A DNA stretch of 22,089 nucleotides, from positions 1 to 22,089 of the IMG/VR virus record IMGVR_UViG_3300007519_000089; one strand, given 5' to 3'. The translations under genes and the position numbers were made by a program. Numbering within the stretch: position 1 is the stretch's first letter; each line of letters starts with the position of its first letter. Shown piece after piece: positions 5,085-21,437 of this stretch. This DNA is from a virus. The notes beneath the pieces were generated by a model. It was given only the letters and a program-made list of their open reading frames with translations. It ran no database searches and was not told where the DNA came from.

Positions 5085-6709
5085 GTTACGCAGTAACGCT
5101 TAACGGCATAGGGCTAACCAACGAGCCGAAAGGGCTTGAACTTGAAAGTGCTATTCAGATAGTGCGCGACAGAAACATTCCGGGCTTATTTACCACGTTA
5201 ATATCTGATCTAGAGTTTTGGGGCGATGGCTACGATGTGCTATTAGCAGCAGTTCAGGGCGTGGGGATATGCGAGTCGATACCTATTACCATTGTGGAAG
5301 ATTGCGAGGTCAACGGCATCAACTTTGAAGGCTTGATATTTCTTTCCGATATTGACCTCGACCTATTCAAATGCACCGCTACGGCAAGCGCGGAAGACAA
5401 TAGCCTTGCCTCGCTTGTGCTCAGGTTAAAAGATACTAAGGTCAGGGTCAATTCAGGCTTTACGCTCAACGGCTTAGTGCTTACCGACATTGGCAGCAAT
5501 ATTGGTGGCAAGACATGGTACACGCTCGAAGAACTTTTTCAGCATACCATAAGCTACATAACCGACAATGAACTAACAGTCAACACGGGCGTAATTTTCG
5601 GCACTAATTTTTTACCATCAGACGCGGGAATTACTGTTTTAACAACAACAAGCTTGGCAGGTACTATTTTGCTTAATTACACCGACCCCGTAGGCATACC
5701 CGTTGACCGCTCTATTGCAATACCATTCGAACAAACCATTGACCAAATAGCCGAAAAAATTGCGCTATCCCTTGCTGACGAAACGCTTAACAACTTAGGC
5801 AGGCAAGCGATTGTTCCGTATTTTATCGACAGACTTGGAGCCGTAATTATATTAGTATCTTTCCCAAGCTTTAGCGGGCTTACCGTTGACATGGGCGGCA
5901 CGGGAACTGTATTGGTAGGTGTCACTGCGGGCAGCTACGGGTTAAACAATGTAGTAATAACGCCGGGCAGCAACTTAAACGCGGCAGCCCCGCAGGATTG
6001 GACAATAAGCTTCCAAAATGTTGTTTCGATAGGCGCCTATTATAACCTATCGTTTGAATTCAGAGATACCGATAGCGTGCAAGAGCTTTTTATTGACCAT
6101 GAATCAGCGTTCTTTGTCAACACTCCGTTATTCACAATCGGTGGTGCTAAAATCATGCAAAGCCAAACCGCGCCGTTTAGTTTCGGCTCGCTGCAATACA
6201 ACCAACAAGCAGAAGACGTGGAGCTGCTGCTATTTAAAGAGCGGTCTTATGTTAGCTATTCATGTGTGAATTCTGATATTAACATAGCAGCCGCGGCTTC
6301 GCCTTATTTGCTAGAAGTAGACGCTGACGCGCAAAGCGATAAGTACTACTTAGCCGAAGTAGTCGGTGGCTCAATAGCATCTTATCAAACGTCATATTAC
6401 AACGGCGCAACAATAATATTAGGAAAGCTTTACCGTAGCGGCTCGATACTAAACACGTACGTCGCTAAGAACTACTCGAACCGCGCACCCTTGGGGCTGA
6501 CATTCGAGGGCGTTACGGTCACCAACGACTACCCAATCAAGATTACGAAAAGCATTACCTTTGACTACCCGATAACACGGGCTAACCTAAAGGCGATGAA
6601 CGACAACAAAAAAGGGTATATCACCGTAAACGGCATAAACGGATGGATAAACAACGTTACGTCAAGCCTTAAAACAGGACTCACGCAATTTGAACTAATA
6701 ACAGAATGA
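5081..6709 (+). CDS. Tail protein, probable distal tail/baseplate hub component
   Basis: A 542-aa protein starting MSYAVTLNGIGL with a conserved-looking N-terminal block (NEPKGLELESAIQIVRD, then GLFTTLISDLEFWGDGYD at about 40-57). This arrangement recurs, to my memory, in tail proteins of Bacteroidota phages located right after the tape measure gene. The rest is beta-rich with repeated Thr/Val/Gly strands and no membrane segment. By synteny (tape measure, then distal tail protein, then tail-associated adhesin or hub), it should sit at the tail tip. The start is fixed by an AGGAGG site and the ATGA overlap with the tape measure stop. It could be the distal tail protein or a fused Dit/hub protein; the sequence alone does not decide. 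Confidence 0.7.
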   Translation: MSYAVTLNGIGLTNEPKGLELESAIQIVRDRNIPGLFTTLISDLEFWGDGYDVLLAAVQGVGICESIPITIVEDCEVNGINFEGLIFLSDIDLDLFKCTATASAEDNSLASLVLRLKDTKVRVNSGFTLNGLVLTDIGSNIGGKTWYTLEELFQHTISYITDNELTVNTGVIFGTNFLPSDAGITVLTTTSLAGTILLNYTDPVGIPVDRSIAIPFEQTIDQIAEKIALSLADETLNNLGRQAIVPYFIDRLGAVIILVSFPSFSGLTVDMGGTGTVLVGVTAGSYGLNNVVITPGSNLNAAAPQDWTISFQNVVSIGAYYNLSFEFRDTDSVQELFIDHESAFFVNTPLFTIGGAKIMQSQTAPFSFGSLQYNQQAEDVELLLFKERSYVSYSCVNSDINIAAAASPYLLEVDADAQSDKYYLAEVVGGSIASYQTSYYNGATIILGKLYRSGSILNTYVAKNYSNRAPLGLTFEGVTVTNDYPIKITKSITFDYPITRANLKAMNDNKKGYITVNGINGWINNVTSSLKTGLTQFELITE

Positions 6710-8412
6710 GCGTAATTCTCACACCAAATCAATCAATCGTTTGCGCGCCTACGACCTTAAGCGACGACTTAATCAATTACGATTGGTTTGTAAACGCCGA
6801 GAATTGGCAGGACACGGGCAGCAACATACTAACAGTAGGTGCTTATGGTGGCGTGCAGATTTATGCGCTTGACGTAGGCGATGGATTTTTACCCTACACG
6901 CTCTACTATGCGCAAACAATAGTAACGGATTGCGATTTCGTGCTTTACAACGTGCTGTTTGATTTCGTCAGCTACACAGGTACGATAACCGTCAGCAACG
7001 CTATTGCGTCAGCCGGAACGGGCGTAGTTATCACAGGCAGCGGGTGGTGGTCTTTTCTACTACCTAAAAACACGAAGCCGAATTTTGCTTACCAAGGCTT
7101 AGCGGGTATTACGCGAATATCAAACCTTCAAGCCTACTGCATAACCGCCGCTCCGGATTGCGATTGCAGGCACGGGGATTACATTCAGCCGATACTTGCC
7201 GAATGTGTTGTTCCGGATAGCGTCGCCGAAATGATGGCGGCAATACGCGCTGAATGGATAGCCGAAAGCACTACCTACGAATCACCGCTATGTGTTGCCG
7301 AGGTTCTTGAATCGCTAGCAGAAATAGGCACGGGGATATGTGACATGACAAGCGAGGGCGTTACGGTTCAATACCCCGCTATAATTGGCGCCGACGTGGT
7401 TTTAAACGGCAGCTTTGCAAGTGGTGCGAACTGGACACCGTCGGGCAGAATGTCAATAGGTAGCGGCTCGCTCAATTGTAACGCAACGGTAGGCGGTGCG
7501 GAATGCTTTCAAACGTGCTTGATTGTCGGCAACTACTACAAGATAACGCTGACGGTATCGGGGTCGACAGGCGGCGAGGTTAAAGTTCAGTTCGGTACTG
7601 TAAACACTATCGGCACGGTAAGCACTAACGCTACTGTCACGTTATACGGCAAGTGCATAACCGACGGCAAGCTGATATTTGAAGCAAGCGCATCAGCGGC
7701 TTTCAACGGCTCGATTGACAACGTATCGGCACGACCTATCTCTATTTTTGAATTCACGGCTTTATTCGACTCAGGGCTATCGTTAGGATTTACACAGGAC
7801 TTCATTCAGGTTGAAGACGACATTGTGTTCCAACGCATGACGCTCAACCCTACCACCGACCCTGTAGCGATTACCAAAGACTGCTTTCGTGTCTTTGTCT
7901 ATAATTCACACAATGAATCGGTAAGCACTGCTTACGAGCCTGAGTACTGCTTGACCGAGCCGTGGCAAATCACTACTAACGCGTGCGGCACGTTGCTGCT
8001 GACCGCGTTAATGGAAACATCGACTAGTTCGTGGGGATGGGGTTTTGCGGTTGAAAATAGCGGTATTTATTCTCCACGCATGAGAGTCTTTGCCGACCTT
8101 ACCGAACCGAAATTCCCTACCGAATTAGACCAATTTGAAACAAGCTTTCACTACATATCACTGATATACGGTGAAAGGCGAAAAGTTAGCTTACTAAAGA
8201 TTAACAGGTCGCCGCTTTACGTTCATGAATTCATTAGCCTTGCTTGCCGCACCGATTTGTTTGGCATAAGGTTAGCCGATAACGAGGCAAACTTCTACTT
8301 CACCAATACCGAGGAGTACACGCCGCAATGGATAAGAACGATGCGCATCGCTCCAGCTACAATCGAGGTGCAGGTCAAGCAACAGGACACCGTGAAAAAC
8401 CTTTGTGATTAA
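6706..8412 (+). CDS. Large tail-tip protein with carbohydrate-binding-like module
   Basis: A 568-aa protein in the second position after the tape measure gene. About residues 230-345 look like a jelly-roll carbohydrate-binding module of the CBM4/9 type: VVLNGSFASGANWTPSG opens it, FQTCLIVGNYYKITLTVSG is its middle strand, and FNGSIDNVSARPI closes it (the usual NGSFE...GW and F.G.IDNVS pattern). The N-terminal part is beta-rich. The C-terminal part (about 350-568) includes charged beta segments that may be a tail-core domain. It starts by ATGA overlap with the previous gene and ends the tail transcript. Likely a baseplate protein or adhesin that touches host surface glycans. The sugar-binding role is inferred from fold-like patterning only. 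Confidence 0.65.
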   Translation: MSVILTPNQSIVCAPTTLSDDLINYDWFVNAENWQDTGSNILTVGAYGGVQIYALDVGDGFLPYTLYYAQTIVTDCDFVLYNVLFDFVSYTGTITVSNAIASAGTGVVITGSGWWSFLLPKNTKPNFAYQGLAGITRISNLQAYCITAAPDCDCRHGDYIQPILAECVVPDSVAEMMAAIRAEWIAESTTYESPLCVAEVLESLAEIGTGICDMTSEGVTVQYPAIIGADVVLNGSFASGANWTPSGRMSIGSGSLNCNATVGGAECFQTCLIVGNYYKITLTVSGSTGGEVKVQFGTVNTIGTVSTNATVTLYGKCITDGKLIFEASASAAFNGSIDNVSARPISIFEFTALFDSGLSLGFTQDFIQVEDDIVFQRMTLNPTTDPVAITKDCFRVFVYNSHNESVSTAYEPEYCLTEPWQITTNACGTLLLTALMETSTSSWGWGFAVENSGIYSPRMRVFADLTEPKFPTELDQFETSFHYISLIYGERRKVSLLKINRSPLYVHEFISLACRTDLFGIRLADNEANFYFTNTEEYTPQWIRTMRIAPATIEVQVKQQDTVKNLCD

Positions 8413-8496: not shown

Positions 8497-9036
8497 ATGT
8501 CATATATCCAATATGGATGCGGCGACCTTCCTAACCATGAGTTAGTGCCGTGTGGCGTATATCCTAAAGGCGGCATTTCGGCGATTGGGATTCTGGAAAC
8601 AGATCACACCATCACCGACTTTACAAACGCCGCGCAATATACCGCCGCGATAGCGAACAACTCGCTGAATGTTATTAAGAACATTCGGGGCAATGTTCCC
8701 GACCCCTCCCCCGTTGAAGGCGACAACCCTGTAGGTTGCGGCCCTGATACGATTCTCAACGGCTTTAATTGGACAGCAAATTGGATGGATGCCAACGTAA
8801 CGAGCGGCAACATTGATTTTTACAACCAATTGAACACCCGCACGACCTTTCTGATAATTTATCTTTGCGATGAAGACACGGTCATGGTTGTTGAGCGTGC
8901 CGTTAATTACATCGGTTTTAACACCGTACCGGCAAGCAACAAAGAGTTGCAGATGTTTAACGCCACCGCGCGCGCATCGTTAAGTGCGAACGGTTTACCG
9001 CTTAAATACGACGCTCCGGCGGGTATTTTCGAGTAA
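8497..9036 (+). CDS. Probable major tail tube protein
   Basis: A 179-aa soluble, beta-rich protein. DTILNGFNWTANWMDANV followed by NIDFYNQLNTRTTF and then strand-rich segments resembles what I know of tube proteins from Bacteroidota phages. It is transcribed as its own unit, with a TAnnTTTG element upstream and a strong terminator directly after, and has an eight-A leader immediately before the ATG, nearly identical to that of the major capsid gene. Both facts suggest high expression, as expected for a protein needed in many copies. It is unusual in lying after the tail-tip genes rather than before the tape measure gene. An alternative is another abundant virion protein, such as a head decoration protein. 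Confidence 0.6.
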   Translation: MSYIQYGCGDLPNHELVPCGVYPKGGISAIGILETDHTITDFTNAAQYTAAIANNSLNVIKNIRGNVPDPSPVEGDNPVGCGPDTILNGFNWTANWMDANVTSGNIDFYNQLNTRTTFLIIYLCDEDTVMVVERAVNYIGFNTVPASNKELQMFNATARASLSANGLPLKYDAPAGIFE

Positions 9037-9053: not shown

Positions 9054-9085
9054 AAAAAGCCCTTGCGATTGTAAGGGCTTTTTTT
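9054..9085 (+). terminator. Rho-independent terminator after tail tube gene
   Basis: An 11-bp stem, AAAAAGCCCTT (9054-9064) with AAGGGCTTTTT (9073-9083), an 8-base loop and a run of seven T (9079-9085). The A-rich 5' arm could also work on the opposite strand. It closes the tail tube transcript. Confidence 0.9.
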
Positions 9086-9103
9086 ATTTCAAAATGAATT
9101 GAC

Positions 9104-9111
9104 TAATTTTG
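9104..9111 (+). promoter_or_regulatory. Putative -7 promoter element of the glycan cassette
   Basis: TAATTTTG, within the extended motif CTAATTTTGAAA (9103-9114), immediately after the terminator. It is only 3 bases before the ATG at 9115. If it acts as the -7 element, the transcript starts near or inside that small gene, so the first mRNA would be leaderless or would miss the start. Confidence 0.5.
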
Positions 9112-9114
9112 AAA

Positions 9115-9285
9115 ATGAACAAAAAGATAAGGTTTACCGGCGGCGTTCAGATATACTCAGCCGTTGTAGGCGAATTGGCTACCAAGGGCTATTGGTTGCC
9201 ACGCGTCGACCTTGCTGAATTCGAGGCAGGAGATATAAGCTTTGAAGTCAACCACAAACACAAAAAAATGATACGTATACGATGA
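9115..9285 (+). CDS. Small basic hypothetical protein, 56 aa
   Basis: Starts MNKKIRFTGGVQIYS, contains LPRVDLAEFEAGD, and ends with a basic tail (HKHKKMIRIR). No recognised domain or membrane segment. Codons are similar to those of the neighbours and the gene fills the gap between a terminator/promoter and the glycosyltransferase genes. Its stop overlaps the next small ORF as ATGA (9282-9285). If the TAATTTTG at 9104-9111 is a promoter, translation would be leaderless or use an upstream transcript. Confidence 0.55.
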   Translation: MNKKIRFTGGVQIYSAVVGELATKGYWLPRVDLAEFEAGDISFEVNHKHKKMIRIR

Positions 9286-9369: not shown

Positions 9370-10311
9370 ATGACGAAAAAAACAAGTGAAACAGGCATAT
9401 TGCTAATGGCTTTCGGTAAGCCGCAATACGCTCAAATGGCGTTCAATATGGCTTTGTCAATAAAAGCGCACGGCACGACGGCACGCATTCAGCTAGTGCA
9501 TGACGACTCGGTAAAAGGACTTAGGCACGATCAGCTTTGGCCGTTTGATATACTCACGCCGATCAAGCACGACGACCTGTATAGCGGGGCTTCAATGAAT
9601 CCGGGCAGGGCAAAAACACGGATGGACTTTTATACCGAGTTTGAAAATACGATATACTTAGATGTCGACGGTATATGCTTAAAACCGATACAGCCTTTGA
9701 TTGACCACATGGACGCGCTTAGCGGCTATTACTACGTTCAATCGGCTAATTGGTACGAGCCGAGCAACGCCGTGCCTACACACAACTTGAAGCGTGACGG
9801 CTTAGCTTTCCCGCAAATGCAGTGGGCTTTGCCTGAAAAGATATGGCAAGTCCACGGACTGAAAGAAGATGCTGAGGTAACGGCTATCAATTCATCGTTC
9901 ACCTATTTCAGAAAGAACGAATCGAAAGCATTCTTTGATAGCGTCCGCGACAACATCGACAACGGATTAAAGCCCGGCGAATACAGTTTGTTGTGGGGCG
10001 GCACGTACCCCGACGAACTAGCATTTAACATCGCGTGCGCTCAACACGAAGTAAACCCGTCGGCTATGCTCAATCCGATATGGTTTCAATTCGGCAAGCC
10101 GCTTACTAAGCCCGCCGAAATGACTGCTAACTACTATTTTTTGGGCTTGTACGGAGGCGCACACGTTACCCACAGTTCGGCGGGTGACTATTACGACAGG
10201 CTTATGTTCGGGTATTGCCGCAATATGGGGCTAACACATCAGTTCAAATGGCACTTCCTTAGCAAGGCAAAGCACCAAGGCAAAAGCACTCAGTTAAAGC
10301 GGTTAAACTAA
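9370..10311 (+). CDS. GT8-like glycosyltransferase
   Basis: A 313-aa predicted GT-A fold enzyme that would move a sugar from a nucleotide sugar to an acceptor. The N-terminus ILLMAFGKPQYAQMAFNMALSIK has the alternating strand/helix of a nucleotide-binding fold, and YLDVDGICLKPI holds a DxD-type metal-binding motif (Asp98, Asp100), as in glycogenin/GT8 relatives. SSFTYFRKNES and the later DELAFNIACAQ fit the acceptor side of this family. No membrane anchor, so it should act in the cytoplasm. First enzyme of a five-enzyme sugar-modification cassette; the following GT2 gene starts one base after its TAA. The sugar and acceptor cannot be read from the sequence. Confidence 0.75.
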   Translation: MTKKTSETGILLMAFGKPQYAQMAFNMALSIKAHGTTARIQLVHDDSVKGLRHDQLWPFDILTPIKHDDLYSGASMNPGRAKTRMDFYTEFENTIYLDVDGICLKPIQPLIDHMDALSGYYYVQSANWYEPSNAVPTHNLKRDGLAFPQMQWALPEKIWQVHGLKEDAEVTAINSSFTYFRKNESKAFFDSVRDNIDNGLKPGEYSLLWGGTYPDELAFNIACAQHEVNPSAMLNPIWFQFGKPLTKPAEMTANYYFLGLYGGAHVTHSSAGDYYDRLMFGYCRNMGLTHQFKWHFLSKAKHQGKSTQLKRLN

Positions 10312-10941
10312 ATGAAGGTATCAATTATCACAACCTGCAAGGGGCGGCTTGACCACCTTAAGCAGTGCTTACCGAGTTGGTTTAACCAATCCTTTGCAGA
10401 TGTCGAGATTGTAATGGTGGATTACAACTGCCCTGAGCAAAGCGGCGACTACTGCGACTGCTTAGGCGAGGGTATTGTAGTTGTCCGCCCTGAGGGTATC
10501 GGTAAGTATTTTAACCTTAGCCATGCCCGTAATATCGGCGCGCTATCTGCAAGCGGTGATGTAATGTTCTTTATTGACGCTGACACGACGCTCGACAACG
10601 ATTTTATTCAGCACCACGTCGATAACGTGCTTGTCGACGGTAGGTTCTTATCGGGGTGGTTCTACGGCGACGCAACAGGTAGCTGCATTGTATGGGCGCG
10701 TGACTTTAAAACGGTGCGGGGCTTCAATGAAAACGTCGAAGGGTGGGGTTTTGACGACATAGACTTCTATAAGCGTTTAGAGGCTAATGGCATTGAGCAG
10801 AAAGGCTTTGAACGTGGTATCGTCACTATTAAGCACGGCGACGAAGACAGGGTGAAGCATTACCACAGCAGTAATTTAAGGGCAACAGATATGAACAACC
10901 AAAGAAAAACGAAGCAAAAATTTATAAGTTGTATATTATGA
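10312..10941 (+). CDS. GT2 family glycosyltransferase
   Basis: A 209-aa GT-A enzyme. MKVSIITTCKGRLDHLKQCLPSW is a classic GT2 N-terminus, FIDADTT carries the DxD metal-binding motif (Asp89, Asp91), and NVEGWGFDDIDFYKRL (motif at 144-151) is the pattern of galactosyl/GalNAc-transferase C-terminal domains, where the second acidic pair lies near the acceptor. There is no membrane segment. It is short compared with many GT2 proteins, but both halves of the catalytic domain are present. Its stop overlaps the next start (ATGA, 10938-10941). Together with the neighbours it suggests stepwise building of a short glycan; Gal/GalNAc or Glc-type specificity is only a guess. Confidence 0.85.
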   Translation: MKVSIITTCKGRLDHLKQCLPSWFNQSFADVEIVMVDYNCPEQSGDYCDCLGEGIVVVRPEGIGKYFNLSHARNIGALSASGDVMFFIDADTTLDNDFIQHHVDNVLVDGRFLSGWFYGDATGSCIVWARDFKTVRGFNENVEGWGFDDIDFYKRLEANGIEQKGFERGIVTIKHGDEDRVKHYHSSNLRATDMNNQRKTKQKFISCIL

Positions 10942-11483
10942 AAGTGACTTGGAAAGACTTAAAGGGGTGGTTCGACTTCCCATCAATTTACGACCGCGCA
11001 ATTGAAACCGCGCCACGCGGGGCGACGCTTGTCGAGGTCGGCGTGGCTTACGGGCGGTCAATCAATTACATGGCGACGCAGTCTAAGCTTGCCGATAAGG
11101 CGTTGAAGATTGTTGGCGTGGACTTGTTCATGGGTAGCGTTAAGGAAAAGCCCGGCACGTACGCAAAGGATATGTTTGACCAATTTGTTCACGGCGTTCA
11201 CGCGTGCGGTAATAACGACGTAATAAGAACGCTTTTAGGCGATAGTGCCGAGTCGGCAAAGAACTTCAAAGACAAAAGCTGCCACCTCGTATTTATCGAC
11301 GCGTCACACACATACGACGAGGTAAAGCGGGACTTGATCGCGTGGCTGCCCAAAGTATCGCGTGGCGGTATATTCGCCGGTCACGACATAGACGCCGAGG
11401 GTGTGCGCAAAGCCGTCAATGAGGTATTAGGCAAGGAAGGCGTTGATTGGGTTATCGAGGGCAGAAGTTGGGTGATGTCATGA
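10938..11483 (+). CDS. Class I SAM-dependent methyltransferase
   Basis: A 181-aa protein with a Rossmann methyltransferase core. VEVGVAYGRS (residues 32-41) is the SAM-binding motif I, IVGVDLF is the acidic end of strand 2, HLVFIDASHTYDEVKRDL (about 116-133) is the motif around strand 4, and GGIFAGHDID (His149, Asp150) follows strand 5. This pattern matches the Methyltransf_24 group found in sugar and secondary-metabolite pathways. I chose the ATG at 10938 because it overlaps the GT2 stop as ATGA; a TTG three codons upstream is less likely. In context it probably methylates a sugar, but protein or small-molecule targets cannot be excluded. Confidence 0.85.
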   Translation: MKVTWKDLKGWFDFPSIYDRAIETAPRGATLVEVGVAYGRSINYMATQSKLADKALKIVGVDLFMGSVKEKPGTYAKDMFDQFVHGVHACGNNDVIRTLLGDSAESAKNFKDKSCHLVFIDASHTYDEVKRDLIAWLPKVSRGGIFAGHDIDAEGVRKAVNEVLGKEGVDWVIEGRSWVMS

Positions 11484-11584
11484 AGCGCAACAAGATTTAT
11501 TATAACGACCCTGAATATTGGGAAATAGCCGTGGCAATTATTTTATTTGGCGCAATAGCGTTTTTGTTCATCGCTTTTGCTTAG
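11480..11584 (+). CDS. 34-aa single-pass membrane miniprotein
   Basis: A short gene overlapping the methyltransferase stop as ATGA. The N-terminal half is charged and aromatic (MKRNKIYYNDPEYWEI), followed by one hydrophobic helix of about 18 residues (AVAIILFGAIAFLFIAFA) that ends the protein. The positive N-terminus suggests an N-in orientation. It ends at TAG 11582-11584, which is also the first bases of a promoter-like TAGTTTTG. It could recruit the cassette enzymes to the membrane or be an accessory lysis or superinfection protein; no evidence separates these. Confidence 0.6.
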   Translation: MKRNKIYYNDPEYWEIAVAIILFGAIAFLFIAFA

Positions 11585-11589
11585 TTTTG
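11582..11589 (+). promoter_or_regulatory. Putative -7 promoter element upstream of a terminator
   Basis: TAGTTTTG, in the extended motif TTAGTTTTGAAT (11581-11592). TTTG at 11563-11566 lies 15 bases upstream. It sits just before a terminator (11624-11655), so a transcript from here would be only about 60 bases unless read through. It may be a duplicated copy of the element at 11670-11677. Confidence 0.35.
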
Positions 11590-11623
11590 AATCGGTTTAG
11601 TTATTGGCTTTGAGGTCAAGGTG

Positions 11624-11655
11624 AAAGCCGCTCAATTTTGGGCGGCTTTTTTTTA
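11624..11655 (+). terminator. Rho-independent terminator inside the glycan cassette
   Basis: Stem AAAGCCGC (11624-11631) with GCGGCTTT (11642-11649), a 10-base loop and a T run extending to about 11654. It ends the first half of the cassette (GT8-like, GT2, methyltransferase, miniprotein). Confidence 0.85.
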
Positions 11656-11669
11656 TAACTTGTTTTGCT

Positions 11670-11677
11670 TAGTTTTG
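11670..11677 (+). promoter_or_regulatory. Putative -7 promoter element of the second cassette half
   Basis: TAGTTTTG, in the extended motif TTAGTTTTGAAA (11669-11680), directly after a terminator and 21 bases before the ATG at 11699. No convincing TTG at -33 was seen. Confidence 0.55.
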
Positions 11678-11698
11678 AAAAACTTACGACAAAACCGA

Positions 11699-11869
11699 AT
11701 GACATACTCCATACAAATCGATGGGCAAACAGTAAGCAAGGCAGCAGATGAAAGCACGCGCGACATCATTTTTACCGCTATAAAAAAAGCCCACCCATAC
11801 AAGCTTGTTACATGGTCTGTTATAAAAGCCGGAACCACCAAATGTTGCGGAGCAATAGAAAAGGCATGA
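11699..11869 (+). CDS. Small hypothetical protein, 56 aa
   Basis: Starts MTYSIQIDGQTVSKAADEST. The frame is open back to 11621, but that extension would run through the terminator and promoter, so I place the start at the ATG at 11699. The protein looks like a small alpha/beta domain (strand, helix RDIIFTAIKKAH, strand), with Cys-Cys near the C-terminus. No known family recognised. Its stop overlaps the fucosyltransferase-type gene as ATGA (11866-11869). Confidence 0.6.
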   Translation: MTYSIQIDGQTVSKAADESTRDIIFTAIKKAHPYKLVTWSVIKAGTTKCCGAIEKA

Positions 11870-12717
11870 AGCGCAAAAAGGTTCGAGTCGTGACAAATTG
11901 GTGTAGTTCGTTTGACATACACGACAGGATAATTGACCAATTTTGCGCCGATAAAACAACCCTCGGCTTTGAATTTACCGCCTCGGATGATTACGACTAC
12001 CTAGTCGCATTCAACGATATGAGGGGCTTTACGCCGTTAGTTCCTAAATCCAATATCTTAGGCTTCATTCAAGAGCCACCAAACCATGCGCATTTTTACG
12101 ACACGAAATTAGCGGACAGCTGCGAATTGGTTTACACCTGCGCCGCGCCACATCAATATCCTGTTTATAGCGATAACATGAAAGGCTTTCCGTGCGGTAT
12201 GTTCTTTCACATGGGCGGTGATATACTCGATTATTTCGGTAAGCCCGAAAAAACTAAAGACGTGTCAATGATTACCAGCGGCATACGTGGCGGCTTCTAC
12301 GAACACCGCCGCAACCTTGCCTCTTATCTTCACCGTAGCGGCACGGCTGATGTTTTCGGCAGGGGGCTATCGACAGGTAAAGGCACGCTGCAAAACAAAG
12401 CAGACGGGCTAATGCCCTACAAGTTTAGCGTGTGCATGGAGAACGGAATATACGAAGGATACATTTCAGATAAGATTATAGACGCTGTTTTGTGCGACGC
12501 GATACCCATCTATGTAGGTGCGCCTGATGTTGCTGCATTCATTCCTTTTGCCATTGTACTCGATAACTTTACCAATCCAAAGCGAGCCGCTGCGGACATA
12601 AAAGAAATCATTCAGTCGGTAAATTACGACGCTATCTACCCAAAGATGCAAGCGTTTAAAAAGCTATATTTAAGCAAGCATTCAATACTAACTAAGATTA
12701 ACGAGTTTGTAAAATGA
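11866..12717 (+). CDS. GT10 family (fucosyltransferase-type) glycosyltransferase
   Basis: A 283-aa GT-B type enzyme. The hallmark GT10 donor-binding block is clear at about residues 185-220: YKFSVCMENGIYEGYISDK followed by IIDAVLCDAIPIYVGAP, matching the family pattern YKF...EN...dY.tEK...al..g.iPvy.Ga. GT10 members transfer fucose from GDP-fucose in alpha-1,3/4 linkage, although some use other sugars. The usual Thr-Glu before the Lys is Ser-Asp here, a conservative change. I chose the ATG that overlaps the previous stop as ATGA; the upstream in-frame extension to 11812 lies inside the preceding gene. No membrane anchor. It suggests a fucose-like cap on the glycan built by the cassette. Confidence 0.85.
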   Translation: MKRKKVRVVTNWCSSFDIHDRIIDQFCADKTTLGFEFTASDDYDYLVAFNDMRGFTPLVPKSNILGFIQEPPNHAHFYDTKLADSCELVYTCAAPHQYPVYSDNMKGFPCGMFFHMGGDILDYFGKPEKTKDVSMITSGIRGGFYEHRRNLASYLHRSGTADVFGRGLSTGKGTLQNKADGLMPYKFSVCMENGIYEGYISDKIIDAVLCDAIPIYVGAPDVAAFIPFAIVLDNFTNPKRAAADIKEIIQSVNYDAIYPKMQAFKKLYLSKHSILTKINEFVK

Positions 12718-13325
12718 AGACAATACACGCAACGATAGCCAAACTTATTGCCACAGGCGGTAAGGTGATATTTGAGATAGGCGCACATAAAGGCGAGGAC
12801 ACAGCGCACCTTGCATCGATTAAAGGCAGCGTCGTTCATGCCTTTGAATGCGACCCGCGCAACATCTTAACGCGATTACCTGCTAACGTGCGCATCAATT
12901 ACAGCGCGGTATCTAACCACAACGGCACTCAGGACTTTTGGCTATCCGAAAAGCCAGGCGCGCAATGGACTTGCAGCAGCAGCTTGTTGCTACCAAAGAA
13001 GCACTTAGAGGAACACCCGCAAATCAAGTTCGACCGCCGCGTAGAGGTAAGATGCACAACGCTCGACACGTACTGCGAATCGAATAGAATCGAAGCAATA
13101 GACTTTATTTGGATGGACGTACAAGGCGCGGAACACCTCGTATTTGAAGGCGGCAATTCTATACTGAAAAACACGCATTTCATATTCACCGAATACGCCG
13201 ACAACGAGCAGTTTAGAACTCAAAAACCATTGGCGGATTTATTACTAATTTTGGGTAAGAATTGGCGCGTTGTCGAGAAGTGGGATTATGACGTGCTGCT
13301 AATCAATGACAACTTTAAAATGTAA
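12714..13325 (+). CDS. FkbM family methyltransferase
   Basis: A 203-aa SAM-dependent O-methyltransferase. VIFEIGAHKGEDT (about residues 19-31) is motif I of FkbM proteins (usually DVGAN.G..T), HAFECDPRN is the strand-2 acidic motif, YSAVSNHNGTQDFW and TLDTYCE are typical FkbM central motifs, and DFIWMDVQGAEHLVFEGG (about 128-145) is the hallmark DVQG/DVEG.E..VL.G block. FkbM enzymes commonly O-methylate sugars or polyketides; beside three glycosyltransferases, sugar methylation is most likely. Starts by ATGA overlap with the GT10 gene. Last enzyme of the cassette; its 3' end carries a promoter-like TAATTTTG at 13246-13253 that could drive the head genes. Confidence 0.9.
   Translation: MKTIHATIAKLIATGGKVIFEIGAHKGEDTAHLASIKGSVVHAFECDPRNILTRLPANVRINYSAVSNHNGTQDFWLSEKPGAQWTCSSSLLLPKKHLEEHPQIKFDRRVEVRCTTLDTYCESNRIEAIDFIWMDVQGAEHLVFEGGNSILKNTHFIFTEYADNEQFRTQKPLADLLLILGKNWRVVEKWDYDVLLINDNFKM
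13246..13253 (+). promoter_or_regulatory. Possible -7 promoter element for head genes, inside coding sequence
   Basis: TAATTTTG followed by GGTAA, the same extension as at the 18362 element (TACTTTTGGGTAA). It lies near the end of the FkbM gene, 119 bases before the portal ATG. Being within coding sequence, it could be a chance match. Confidence 0.3.
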
Positions 13326-13329
13326 AGAT

Positions 13330-13368
13330 ATGTGTGGCTGCAAAAAAAAACCTAGAGGCAAAAGATGA
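13330..13368 (+). CDS. 12-codon ORF (MCGCKKKPRGKR) coupled to portal
   Basis: A tiny basic Cys-containing ORF starting four bases after the FkbM stop. Its TGA overlaps the portal ATG as ATGA (13365-13368). It resembles the start of the short CGCKK-type proteins I recall near head genes of Bacteroidota phages, here cut to 12 codons. It may be a remnant, or a translation bridge delivering ribosomes to the portal start. Confidence 0.35.
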   Translation: MCGCKKKPRGKR

Positions 13369-15143
13369 TTAACGACGAGCAAAACGTATCACCCTTAGAG
13401 GGCGCGCTAAATCATGTCGTTAAAGTGCTTAAAGGCACGAAGGGAGATGCTACGCCCGACTTTTACGACACCTATGCAGATTCTGTCAAGGTGGCCAGTA
13501 AGCTCCGGCCACACGCTGAATATGACTACTTCCCCGACGAACTTTTTGCGGAAAAAGCACCGAACCAAACCGCTGCTGAATTCACGTATCAAAAAGGGAT
13601 ATATCAGCCCGTAACCGTGCCTTACTTCCACAAAGCGGCTAACACCGCTTATCGGATATGGAACGAGCAGAACTACGATATTATTTGGGGTGAAGGCAAC
13701 GACGAGCAGCGCGACTACTTTTATAAGCAGTTTCCTTTCTGGGGCAACTTAGAAAGCTATTATAAACAGGTCGTCACGCCTCGCGACCTAACAGACCCGA
13801 ACGCGGTTATTGTTCACGTGCCTATAAACTTAGCGTTCACTGAGGAGGGTATATTCGATGACAGCAAGCGCGTTGAGGTAATAGCCGATTTATACCCGTG
13901 TGAGCGTGTATGGCTATTTGAAGACGATACCGAATGTATTATCGCGTCTTATGAACACTCGATGCTTGACGGTGATAAAACGGACGGCCTCGTATTGTGG
14001 TACTTTGATAAAAACGAAATCTACAAGCTTACGCAATACGGCAAAAAACAGGAATACACCTTTAACATCGAGCTGTATTATGCCCATAACCGCGACAAGA
14101 TGCCATGTCGTCGCCTTGGTGGCATTCCAATTCAAAGGCAAGATAACTTTTACTTTCAATCGTTCTTTAGCCCTGTTGTACCCGCTTTGAATCAAGCGCT
14201 ATGTGACAGCTCGACGCTATCAATATCTAAGTATAGCCACGCCTTTTTGCAAAAGTGGGAATACGTCGACGACTGCGAGGTGTGCGACGGCTCAGGCAAT
14301 GAAAGCTATCACATGGAAGGCTTCAACGAGCTAAAGACCCGTATCTGCTCAGGTTGCCACGGCGCGGGGGCTAAGCGTATGTTTTCCGCTTCGTCGGTTT
14401 ATCAAGTTCAATCTCCCACGAAATTCAATACCGAAAAGGAGAAAATGGCCATACCACCCGCGGGCTTTATTGACATAGACCATGGCATCCTTGACTTTTT
14501 GCAAACACAGGTCGAAAAGAATATACAAAGCGCCTTTGAGCTGTTGTCAATAGACGTAATGAACAGCGACAAAATCAGCGGGCGTGAAACGGCAACAGGC
14601 AAGGCAATAGACCGCGAGGAACTGTATTCGTTTTTACTCAGGTTTAGCGAAACGGTATTTAACTTATTTGAGTTTAGCGTTAACACAATCGGAGAAATGC
14701 GATTCGGCAAAGAATGGCAAGCGCCTTCAATCCGCTATCCGCAAAACTTTGAGATGCGAACCGATACGGAACTAACCGAGGAGCTAAAAGCCGCTCCCGA
14801 CTTCGCTAAACCGATGCTTGCCATGCAGTACGCAGGCGCGCGCTTCGCCACGCAAGAAAGCAAAGCGGACTTGCTTAAGATTTCGTTTTCGTTAGACTAC
14901 TTTTTCGGCAAAGAGGTCAAAGATGTGATAGCCCTCGTTTCGTCAGGCATTGCGCCGAAATGGAAGGCGACGCTTCACAACGAAATGATGTCTATAATCC
15001 GCGAAGCTATTGCCGGTAACGCTACGTTCATGGACTTAGACGCTATCGAGCGTCAAGCGATTGTCGATGCGATAGCTCAGGCAAGAACGCCCGACAACGC
15101 GAGGTTAACGCCGGAGCAAATCCTTTCGGAAATTATAATATGA
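13365..15143 (+). CDS. Portal protein with DnaJ-like zinc motif
   Basis: The portal forms the ring at the unique capsid vertex through which DNA enters and leaves, and docks the terminase. Assignment comes from size (592 aa), from position before the Mu F-like protein, scaffold and capsid genes, and from portal-like composition: an N-terminal acidic, Tyr/Phe-rich domain, a central beta-rich wing (about 150-300), the helical stretch LDFLQTQVEKNIQSAFELLS leading to ISGRETATGKAIDREELYSF (typical portal stem/crown helices), and an Ala/Gln-rich C-terminus. Odd feature: CEVCDGSG (Cys304, Cys307) and CSGCHGAG (Cys328, Cys331) form two CxxCxGxG repeats, as in the DnaJ zinc-binding domain. Start by ATGA overlap with the 12-codon ORF; stop overlaps the next gene as ATGA. 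Confidence 0.82.
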   Translation: MINDEQNVSPLEGALNHVVKVLKGTKGDATPDFYDTYADSVKVASKLRPHAEYDYFPDELFAEKAPNQTAAEFTYQKGIYQPVTVPYFHKAANTAYRIWNEQNYDIIWGEGNDEQRDYFYKQFPFWGNLESYYKQVVTPRDLTDPNAVIVHVPINLAFTEEGIFDDSKRVEVIADLYPCERVWLFEDDTECIIASYEHSMLDGDKTDGLVLWYFDKNEIYKLTQYGKKQEYTFNIELYYAHNRDKMPCRRLGGIPIQRQDNFYFQSFFSPVVPALNQALCDSSTLSISKYSHAFLQKWEYVDDCEVCDGSGNESYHMEGFNELKTRICSGCHGAGAKRMFSASSVYQVQSPTKFNTEKEKMAIPPAGFIDIDHGILDFLQTQVEKNIQSAFELLSIDVMNSDKISGRETATGKAIDREELYSFLLRFSETVFNLFEFSVNTIGEMRFGKEWQAPSIRYPQNFEMRTDTELTEELKAAPDFAKPMLAMQYAGARFATQESKADLLKISFSLDYFFGKEVKDVIALVSSGIAPKWKATLHNEMMSIIREAIAGNATFMDLDAIERQAIVDAIAQARTPDNARLTPEQILSEIII

Positions 15144-19390: not shown

Positions 19391-19932
19391 CCTTAGCGCA
19401 ACAAATCGAAAGCTTAGAACGTAAAAAGCAGATGTTAATATCGGGGCGGGACAAAGCACTTCGCGTCGCCGCTCTTGATACGACGGCGGCTGTATCGATG
19501 CGAATCTTTACCTCAGGCGGTGCGCAACGTGGGCGAATTGGTAGCTACTCGACGCGGCCTATGTTTGCAACGCAGTCACAGTTCGTGAAAAAAGCAGCGT
19601 TTAAAAAAGACGGGTTTATACGCTTTCCCGGCAGCAGCGGCGCAACTCCGATCATGAATCTCCCCGGCGGATATAAGCAGCTCAGGGCTATTCAAGGCAG
19701 ACCTACCAACACGGTCAACCTAGACTATTCCGGCGCAACACGTAAAGACTTCGAGAATAGCGTGCGCAAATGGGGCAACGGATATGCGGCTATTGTAAAG
19801 CGCGATTTAAGCGCCGAAATAATCGAAAAGAACGAGCTTCATTTTAAGAAAAAGATTTTCGCTTTGACTGACAAGGAATTGATACACTTTGAAAAAACGC
19901 TTACTAAAGAAGTAATGAAATGGATTTCTTAG
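19387..19932 (+). CDS. Neck/tail completion protein, HK97 gp10-like
   Basis: A 181-aa basic protein. It has an N-terminal helix rich in Lys/Arg, a central loop with Gly/Ser and Arg residues, NLDYSGATRKDFENSV, NGYAAIVKRD and EIIEKNELHFKKKIFALTDKE. This order (long N-terminal helix, beta-sheet with an L.YSG..R.S/DF pattern, then a conserved F...LT..E end) resembles the HK97 gp10/virion morphogenesis group that sits at the head-tail joint. It overlaps the upstream gene (ATGA, 19387-19390) and overlaps the downstream gene by 13 bases. Confidence 0.72.
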   Translation: MTLAQQIESLERKKQMLISGRDKALRVAALDTTAAVSMRIFTSGGAQRGRIGSYSTRPMFATQSQFVKKAAFKKDGFIRFPGSSGATPIMNLPGGYKQLRAIQGRPTNTVNLDYSGATRKDFENSVRKWGNGYAAIVKRDLSAEIIEKNELHFKKKIFALTDKELIHFEKTLTKEVMKWIS

Positions 19933-21437
19933 CCTTAACCACCGCAATATTCGACCGCATTGCGCCGTATCAATTAGTACGACATACAGGCTTTGCCGAG
20001 GTGATAACCGACAAGGATAAAAAGTACCCCGCCGTGTTTTGCACCAACGGTGAATTTAAGCACGTCGACGGTGGTTACGATTGGAACGAGGGTATAGCTT
20101 ACGTGCGCGTGAATGGTAGGCAGTCACAAAGCGACGCGCCTGAATCGGCTTACTTCATGGGCTGTCAGGACTTACAGAATATCAGCATACCGCTTCGCCT
20201 TGTGCTAATAGCCCGCCGCGATAAGTGGCTACCTTTCGACGCGGCGCAAACTATTGCCTCTGCTATCGGCGGCAACTACCGCAACTTAGCCTTAGAAATC
20301 GGCGCGGTGTATGTTAGCGTGAATTCAACAGATACAGAAAGCAATTACACTACGGTTTTAGAAGATGAATTTGAGGGCGTAGATATTCGCTTCGACACCT
20401 CGCTTATGGCTATTTACGTAGACATTGTTGTCGAGTTACAAGGCGACGCGCAATGTTTAGCAACACCTGCTTGCATTGCTGTCGTTCCCGAACCGTTATG
20501 GCTTGCGGGGGTAAGTAATGGAAGGCTTTACCGCTCTATTAATGGCGGTACGACATGGGCGGAAACACAGCCCGCTGGAAATTTTAACGCAACGTGGGCA
20601 GGCTCTCACGTAGCTACCCTAGGAACTTTTGCTTTTGTGACAACCAACACAAAACTATACAGGTCTAACGACGGCGGGGCTACATGGGTGGAATTGACAA
20701 GCCCGAACGCAAACACTAACTTAGGAGTAATAAGCGGCGCAAAGGAAAACGGCAAAGTACTTGCAATAGGCACGCCTATAAACACGGCGTTACCAAACAT
20801 ATTTTTATCCGATACTAACGGGCTAAACCTTGCATCCTTTACCATCGACGGTATAACAACGGCACGGGAGTACACAAATTCAAAAATGAGCAGCAACGGG
20901 CAAAAGATTGTTGTTGCAGGCGATAATAGGGACTTTAGGGCAGCAGGTGTTCGGTTTACAACAAGGCTTACAACAGACAACGGCGCAACGTGGTCAACAC
21001 CTTTTAATGTAAGCAACTCGTTTTATGTAGTTTATGCAGTTAATGATTTGTTGGATAAAATTTTTATTGCTGAATTCAATTCGGTCTTAACGTTTAATTC
21101 ACTAAAAAGAACGATTGACGGCGGCGCGACATGGGACACGGCGGCAGGCGTGACAAGTGGCGGGTTCTTTGACATGAGCGGCGACGGCACTACGTTGTAT
21201 TGGGCTACGTCTTCAATACTTCGCAAATCGACTAACAACGGCACGTCGTTTACCACACTCACAATACCAAGCAGGGCAGGCAATATTCAGGAAGTCCGCA
21301 CCAATTTGAACGGGCTAAAATTGTTAGTGCTGACATCTCAACGCGCCTACCTAAGCTTAGACGGCGGCACGACTTGGGCGCAAACACAACCGAACGGAAA
21401 CAGTAACTTCAATTGGGACTTAGGATTTATTCAATAA
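19920..21437 (+). CDS. Putative tail terminator fused to a six-Asp-box beta-propeller
   Basis: A 505-aa two-part protein. Residues about 1-185 look like a stand-alone neck protein: short helix MDFLALTTAIFDRIAP, then beta strands with YPAVFCTNGEFKHV and SIPLRLVLIARRDKW, in the position expected of the tail terminator. After a linker (CLATPACIAVVPEP), residues about 194-505 carry six Asp-box (BNR) repeats: SINGGTTW 206-213, SNDGGATW 249-256, TTDNGATW 351-358, TIDGGATW 398-405, STNNGTSF 437-444 and SLDGGTTW 479-486. Such repeats build sialidase-type six-bladed propellers. No catalytic Arg triad or Tyr/Glu pair is evident, so binding or structure is more likely than sialidase activity. Overlaps the previous gene by 13 bases. 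Confidence 0.75.
   Translation: MDFLALTTAIFDRIAPYQLVRHTGFAEVITDKDKKYPAVFCTNGEFKHVDGGYDWNEGIAYVRVNGRQSQSDAPESAYFMGCQDLQNISIPLRLVLIARRDKWLPFDAAQTIASAIGGNYRNLALEIGAVYVSVNSTDTESNYTTVLEDEFEGVDIRFDTSLMAIYVDIVVELQGDAQCLATPACIAVVPEPLWLAGVSNGRLYRSINGGTTWAETQPAGNFNATWAGSHVATLGTFAFVTTNTKLYRSNDGGATWVELTSPNANTNLGVISGAKENGKVLAIGTPINTALPNIFLSDTNGLNLASFTIDGITTAREYTNSKMSSNGQKIVVAGDNRDFRAAGVRFTTRLTTDNGATWSTPFNVSNSFYVVYAVNDLLDKIFIAEFNSVLTFNSLKRTIDGGATWDTAAGVTSGGFFDMSGDGTTLYWATSSILRKSTNNGTSFTTLTIPSRAGNIQEVRTNLNGLKLLVLTSQRAYLSLDGGTTWAQTQPNGNSNFNWDLGFIQ

Follow-up and report, generated by a model that had tools for sequence, protein, structure and literature searches.

Genes between the tail-tube-like and portal genes

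The 22,089-bp stretch of DNA analyzed here, called the window below, is the entire virus record IMGVR_UViG_3300007519_000089 and part of a tailed phage genome. All of its genes lie on the + strand and include those for a terminase, a tape measure, tail proteins, a tail-tube-like protein, a cassette of enzymes, a portal, and MuF-like, scaffold-like, and capsid-like proteins, the last three named from their position and their relatives. The subject of this analysis is the cassette, five long same-strand open reading frames (ORFs) between the tail-tube-like gene and the portal gene that encode glycosyltransferases (GTs) and methyltransferases. The features of this interval and its borders are as follows.

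8497..9036, + strand: tail-tube-like virion protein of 179 amino acids, the proposed acceptor (structural model and fold matches)
9054..9083, + strand: terminator-like hairpin between the tube and GT8 genes, followed by a TAnnTTTG promoter-like motif (TAATTTTG near 9104)
9115..9285, + strand: 56-amino-acid ORF between the tube and GT8 genes
9370..10311, + strand: GT8-like GT-A glycosyltransferase, the proposed initiator (DxD at D98/D100, WGxTYPDEL motif, fold)
10312..10941, + strand: GT2 glycosyltransferase with a Glyco_transf_7C (GalNAc-T/beta4GalT-type) C-terminal part (Pfam GT2 6.6e-12, Glyco_transf_7C 6.2e-10)
10938..11483, + strand: Methyltransf_24 class I methyltransferase (Pfam 3.6e-19; RMNT_CmcI 1e-5)
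11480..11584, + strand: 34-amino-acid ORF with a single hydrophobic stretch, ATGA-coupled (its start overlaps the methyltransferase stop)
11623..11650, + strand: terminator-like hairpin between the Methyltransf_24 and GT10 genes, followed by promoter-like TAGTTTTG
11699..11869, + strand: 56-amino-acid ORF, ATGA-coupled to GT10
11866..12717, + strand: GT10 (alpha-1,3-fucosyltransferase-type) glycosyltransferase (Pfam 3.5e-10; alpha-1,3-fucosyltransferase 2nzw 6.5e-9)
12714..13325, + strand: FkbM-domain methyltransferase (Pfam 6.1e-21)
13365..15143, + strand: portal protein, the right border of the cassette (phrog_7376, PHROG portal 3.7e-10)

Pfam and PHROG searches confirmed the initial annotation of GT2, class I methyltransferase, GT10, and FkbM genes on the same strand between the tail tube and portal genes. 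For example, the GT10 protein scored 40.3 bits against a PF00852 cut-off of 23.9, and the FkbM protein scored 75.7 bits against a PF05050 cut-off of 22.7. The first enzyme had been called GT8-like, and this call held at the level of fold but found no counterpart in Pfam, where the window protein had no match above the cut-off and a relative (L133) scored 16.8 bits against a profile cut-off of 24.3. The AlphaFold model of the window protein (predicted local distance difference test score [pLDDT] 85, predicted template modeling score [pTM] 0.88) had as its best PDB matches the UGGT catalytic domain, glycogenin, LgtC, and LARGE1 (E 7e-9 and weaker). The protein has the GT-A fold and the DxD motif by which GT8 is recognized in CAZy, and in its family the DxD is invariant and accompanied by a WGxxxPDEL motif. 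GT8-like thus seems a fair name at the level of the GT8/GT24 fold, short of strict GT8 membership, and GT8 is used below in this sense.

The protein encoded immediately before the cassette gave a model with a pLDDT of 73, and its leading Foldseek matches were phage tail tubes (best E 5e-4). In VIA-align, Z scores of 8 to 9 were obtained with lambda gpV, YSD1, YDC107, the 80alpha baseplate, and the DshS-R4C tube. The fold scores are modest and the match list consists mostly of tube-type proteins; on this model we accept the product as probably a tail tube or a near homolog of one. The protein and its homologs carry four nearly invariant cysteines (C8, C19, C81, and C124), which is unusual for a tail tube and might reflect disulfides or bound metal.

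The initial annotation described the five genes as coupled by ATGA overlaps. Such overlaps were found at the GT2/Methyltransf_24 (10938) and GT10/FkbM (12714) junctions, whereas GT8 and GT2 abut as TAAATG, and Methyltransf_24 and GT10 are about 380 nucleotides (nt) apart, with two short ORFs and a terminator-like hairpin between them. The likely starts are 10938 for Methyltransf_24 and 11866 for GT10, and the upstream starts given in the ORF list are disfavored. Further, two similar AT-rich units (direct repeat D3, at 9081-9115 and 11647-11681) each lie right after a terminator-like hairpin and contain TAnnTTTG, a motif of Bacteroidota type. The TAnnTTTG motifs after the hairpins may be promoters, which would make these units repeated terminator-promoter joints within the cassette. 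Because overlaps are missing and hairpins are present, the genes do not form one coupled five-gene operon, and because the hairpin and TAnnTTTG units interrupt the gene run, the cassette in this phage may be two transcription units.

As initially noted, the enzymes lack membrane anchors: no likely transmembrane segment was found in the cassette enzymes, the only borderline hydrophobic maximum (2.04) being in a GT8. Nor did Pfam and hydrophobicity searches of the related loci detect a membrane-anchored enzyme, flippase, or polymerase in any cassette. The window therefore has phage-encoded soluble GTs inside its virion gene cluster. O-methyltransferase genes are also part of the cassette, as Methyltransf_24 and FkbM in the window and as a single O-methyltransferase in a second clade of relatives described below.

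Outside the cassette, the gene order of the window (1-22089) is unusual in that the tape measure and tail-tube genes precede the portal and capsid genes, unlike in Polaribacter phage P12002L. A 505-amino-acid protein encoded at 19920-21437 has an N-terminal part resembling a 209-amino-acid protein at the same position in a related phage (L002). After this part come repeated SxDGGxTW Asp-box (BNR-like) motifs, which are missing from L002, possibly a propeller carried on a head-tail joining protein. Searches for RNA families and tRNAs in the window found none.

Conservation and variation of the cassette among related phages

The comparison of related phages took in several hundred viral loci; many contigs were common to the scans, and the counts below are non-independent samples. 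This comparison, suggested in the initial annotation as a way of relating the cassette to particular virion proteins, tied GT8 to the tail-tube gene. In GT8-like profile scans, 117 of 118 distinct GT8-like proteins had a tube homolog at most 900 nt upstream, and the start of the remaining one lies 27 nt from the end of its contig. In a scan seeded by the most divergent GT8, 71 genes directly adjoined a tube gene and two lay within about 0.9 kb of one; the remainder were two without a detected tube and four at contig edges. Reciprocally, GT8 was the next gene in 78 of 79 assessable loci found with a tube profile, that of the second clade, the all-clade tube profile being too divergent for a scan of the collection. 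The only matches in genome_contigs were two phage-like contigs in metagenome-assembled genomes (MAGs), with the same gene order. One 62,297-bp contig, IMGVR_UViG_3300037493_001386 (L227, L234), carries tube-GT8 regions at two places, spaced by about 34.9 kb, perhaps because a circular genome of about 35 kb was over-assembled.

The pairwise identities in the window's clade agree with this linkage. Tube identity correlated with GT8 identity at an r of 0.94 (621 pairs), compared to 0.76 for tube and portal, 0.57 for tube and the upstream gene, and 0.82 for GT8 and portal. The difference between 0.94 and the values of 0.57 and 0.76 points to tube and GT8 traveling as a unit, and the two-gene core, as read from these sequences, is tube then GT8. 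No description of the tube-GT8 pair was found in the open-access papers searched.

The remainder of the cassette was far less constant. A portal-profile scan yielded 68 viral loci, and the full tube-portal interval was present in 41 analyzed sequences (40 loci and the window). Some trends were apparent in these and the other loci. First, GT8 was present in 41/41 full-interval sequences, and GT2 and GT10 were each present in 38/41. Every relative that spans the full interval keeps the arrangement, which is far beyond chance. Second, the rest of the interval was variable, containing several kinds of FkbM, methyltransferase and GT pairs, and extra GT2s; in three loci, GT10 was replaced by sets with a short DegT aminotransferase and a hexapeptide or PglD-like acyltransferase. 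Third, the loci differed in the extent of the cassette, from GT8 only (L307, L315, L238, L239, L289, L299, and L080) through GT8 and one O-methyltransferase in a second large clade to GT8, GT2, GT10, and tip genes in the window's clade. Finally, the first gene, GT8, was the most constant and the last gene the most variable across the series. The initial view of the five enzymes as one fixed unit thus had to be abandoned: GT8 alone never varies, GT10 and FkbM can be exchanged, and the run of genes is broken by hairpins. A good example of exchange is a methyltransferase shared at 90% identity by L023- and L050-type phages despite a tube identity of 50%, which means that at least that tip gene moves between lineages. 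A single-sequence GT10 scan gave no matches.

Fused or enlarged GT8 proteins also occur. Locus L069 encodes a 777-amino-acid fusion (5977-8310) in which the GT8-like domain is followed, as judged by eye, by GT2-like and GT9-like parts, and other loci (e.g., L248, L261, and L279) encode GT8 proteins of 737 to 750 amino acids.

No isolated phage matched the GT8-like, capsid, or tube proteins; the only match, a weak one, was in an uncultured 484-kb phage. The host of the group is tentatively placed in the Bacteroidota, the clues being weak: Polaribacter-phage portal relatives, one Bacteroidota-labeled MAG, and the TAnnTTTG motifs.

Proposed glycosylation of the virion

A virion-aimed cassette for building and methylating a glycan, as the initial annotation proposed, is the best reading of these data, with GT8 locked to the tube and no anchors, flippase, or lysogeny genes found. 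We place the probability that the cassette is a virion-glycosylation module, in which GT8 primes a virion protein and the other enzymes extend and cap the glycan, at about 60%. The GT8-like enzyme would draw on a host nucleotide sugar to place the first sugar on a virion protein encoded by a neighboring gene, most likely the tail tube. The fold matches to glycogenin and UGGT, both protein-acting glucosyltransferases, support a protein acceptor. The GT2/7C and GT10 enzymes would then lengthen the glycan and add branches, with Methyltransf_24 and FkbM capping it by O-methylation. The host presumably supplies the donors, as no member of the GDP-mannose-dehydratase family was found in 14 related records. 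The graded series of cassettes is consistent with an attachment enzyme followed by extenders and tips, so that gene order may mirror the order of action. Tip enzymes would be swapped among related phages and the attachment enzyme retained, which means that the virion surface glycan would vary while its attachment stays. With a GT gene adjoining the tube gene and exchangeable enzymes for sugar building and methylation, the particles are probably coated with a variable glycan, which may serve for shielding or altered adsorption. A bolder version, in which dedicated and near-universal tail-tube glycosylation defines a large phage group, a glycogenin-like enzyme that is inherited along with the tube primes every tail (possibly on a flexible N-terminal Tyr), and the exchangeable tips make serotype-like variants, is doubtful, though conceivable.

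Several observations weigh against virion glycosylation by this route. No one Ser, Thr, or Tyr stands out as an acceptor across all tubes, and the conserved tube-GT8 adjacency comes in part from shared ancestry. Conserved Ser and Thr residues of the tube are S28, S71, T93, T102, and T157, numbered as in the window protein. The fold scores of GT8 (TM about 0.5, 10-14% identity) leave its substrate unspecified, and LgtC, a lipo-oligosaccharide enzyme, is among its matches. In three variants (L287, L290, and L259), the neighbor of GT8 is the terminase gene, and in two of these a tube lies about 0.9 kb upstream; L287 and L290 (312-4882) also carry several GT2-like genes upstream of the tube gene. 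An extreme case is the L388 contig (758-3940), the one locus in which tube and portal were found without GT8, which retains an intact O-methyltransferase. This means that GT8 is not indispensable, that the methyltransferase may act alone, and that the first step can be lost. In the L388 tube, Phe replaces Tyr6, which 77 of 78 related tubes have (the remaining one has a gap), and Val replaces a conserved Thr at 139. The Tyr-to-Phe change is suggestive because glycogenin acts on tyrosine; however, L388 is a single case, and a few GT8-bearing tubes also lack that Tyr.

Among the alternatives, the one that survives best is that the cassette remodels polysaccharide or lipo-oligosaccharide on the surface of the infected host and so blocks readsorption of progeny or superinfection. 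GT8 LgtC, GT2, GT10, and FkbM enzymes are also known from surface-polysaccharide loci, and besides the LgtC match, the variable cassette content resembles that of O-antigen loci. Yet no cassette contains a membrane-anchored GT, flippase, or polymerase, and remodeling of the host surface leaves the tie of the first enzyme to the tail-tube gene unexplained; we consider it unlikely. Lasting serotype conversion is unlikely because no integrase (PF00589) was found in 12 related records, possibly incomplete, in a search with positive controls. Serotype conversion of the GtrABC type is disfavored, there being neither a membrane-anchored GT with a flippase in the cassettes nor a temperate-phage integrase in those 12 records.

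Slightly less likely again is that the enzymes act on another virion protein, such as the capsid, neck, or tail tip, and that conserved gene order alone accounts for the position beside the tube gene. The portal and capsid genes lie downstream, the adjacency is in part inherited, and the capsid is named as a target in mycobacteriophages in PMC12619734 and PMC11600133. Against this, GT8 divergence follows the tube (r of 0.94) more closely than the portal (0.82), a difference to which DNA distance contributes. That the genes are loosely assembled cargo without a common pathway is improbable: the internal terminator- and promoter-like units and the swapping of tip genes look cargo-like, but GT8 was never missing from a full interval, and GT2 and GT10 were there in most. 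Least probable of all is hypermodification of phage DNA, for although phage GTs acting on hydroxymethylated bases are well known (PMC12619734, citing Pyle 2024) and the relatives carry DNA methyltransferases, the enzymes sit in the virion cluster, GT10 and FkbM are glycan families, and a T-even-type hydroxymethylase of the thymidylate-synthase fold was found in 0/16 related records, compared to 9/14 control genomes.

Experimentally shown glycosylation of phage virions so far rests on few isolates. If glycosylation of the virion by this cassette is true, it would belong to the core traits of a phage group widespread in aquatic habitats, with the tube-GT pair as its signature, and the versions found in nature, whether minimal (GT8 only), methylated, or elaborate, would make the acceptor, the order of addition, and the purpose directly testable. 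It would also mean that phages can vary their surface glycan much as bacteria vary their O-antigens.

Comparison with known systems

Relative to the initial annotation, what adds interest is the conserved tube-GT8 core with swappable tips; the GT10 and FkbM combination, and virion glycosylation itself, are less new. The precedent for the latter is in mycobacteriophages (PMC12619734), with virion-glycosylation cassettes of the Corndog/Che8 type. In the Corndog group (cluster O), the genes for an O-methyltransferase and three GTs lie between those for the portal and a protease (PMC4351075), and in PMC11600133, citing Freeman 2023, the enzymes of this group are reported to modify the capsid and tail tube. 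Our comparison was made on the Firecracker and Catdawg records (JN698993 and KF017002). Like the window, Corndog gp35-38 and Firecracker gp33-36 combine an O-methyltransferase with several GTs in a virion operon, and the Firecracker-type cassette and the window each have a Methyltransf_24-type enzyme. The Corndog-group enzymes are soluble, being detected in infected cells and absent from virions. However, that cassette lies between portal and protease rather than beside the tube gene, its hosts are actinobacterial, and the GT10, FkbM, aminotransferase, and acyltransferase modules were not seen there. No BLASTP or profile match was found between Firecracker gp33-36 and the window enzymes. Because the Corndog-group GTs have no detectable similarity to the GT8-like enzyme, we regard the architecture as analogous to, but not demonstrably homologous with, that of the window.

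The combination of GT10 and FkbM enzymes, initially thought to be undescribed in phages, occurs in Synechococcus phage S-SRM01 (MW015081.1), where a GT10-like gene is followed by an overlapping annotated FkbM gene, with GT2s nearby; the GT10-like protein is 36% identical over its core to the window GT10. S-SRM01 differs from the window in being a T4-like cyanophage of 241 kb whose cluster has its own GDP-fucose synthesis, lies among auxiliary genes rather than between tube and portal, and has no GT8-like match. Polaribacter phages P12002L/S encode a distant homolog of the window portal (about 24% identity), but they have no annotated GT cassette and follow the conventional terminase-portal-capsid-tail order. 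Finally, glycogenin and UGGT, protein glucosyltransferases of GT8/GT24, share the GT-A fold and DxD motif with the GT8-like enzyme of the window at 10-14% sequence identity.

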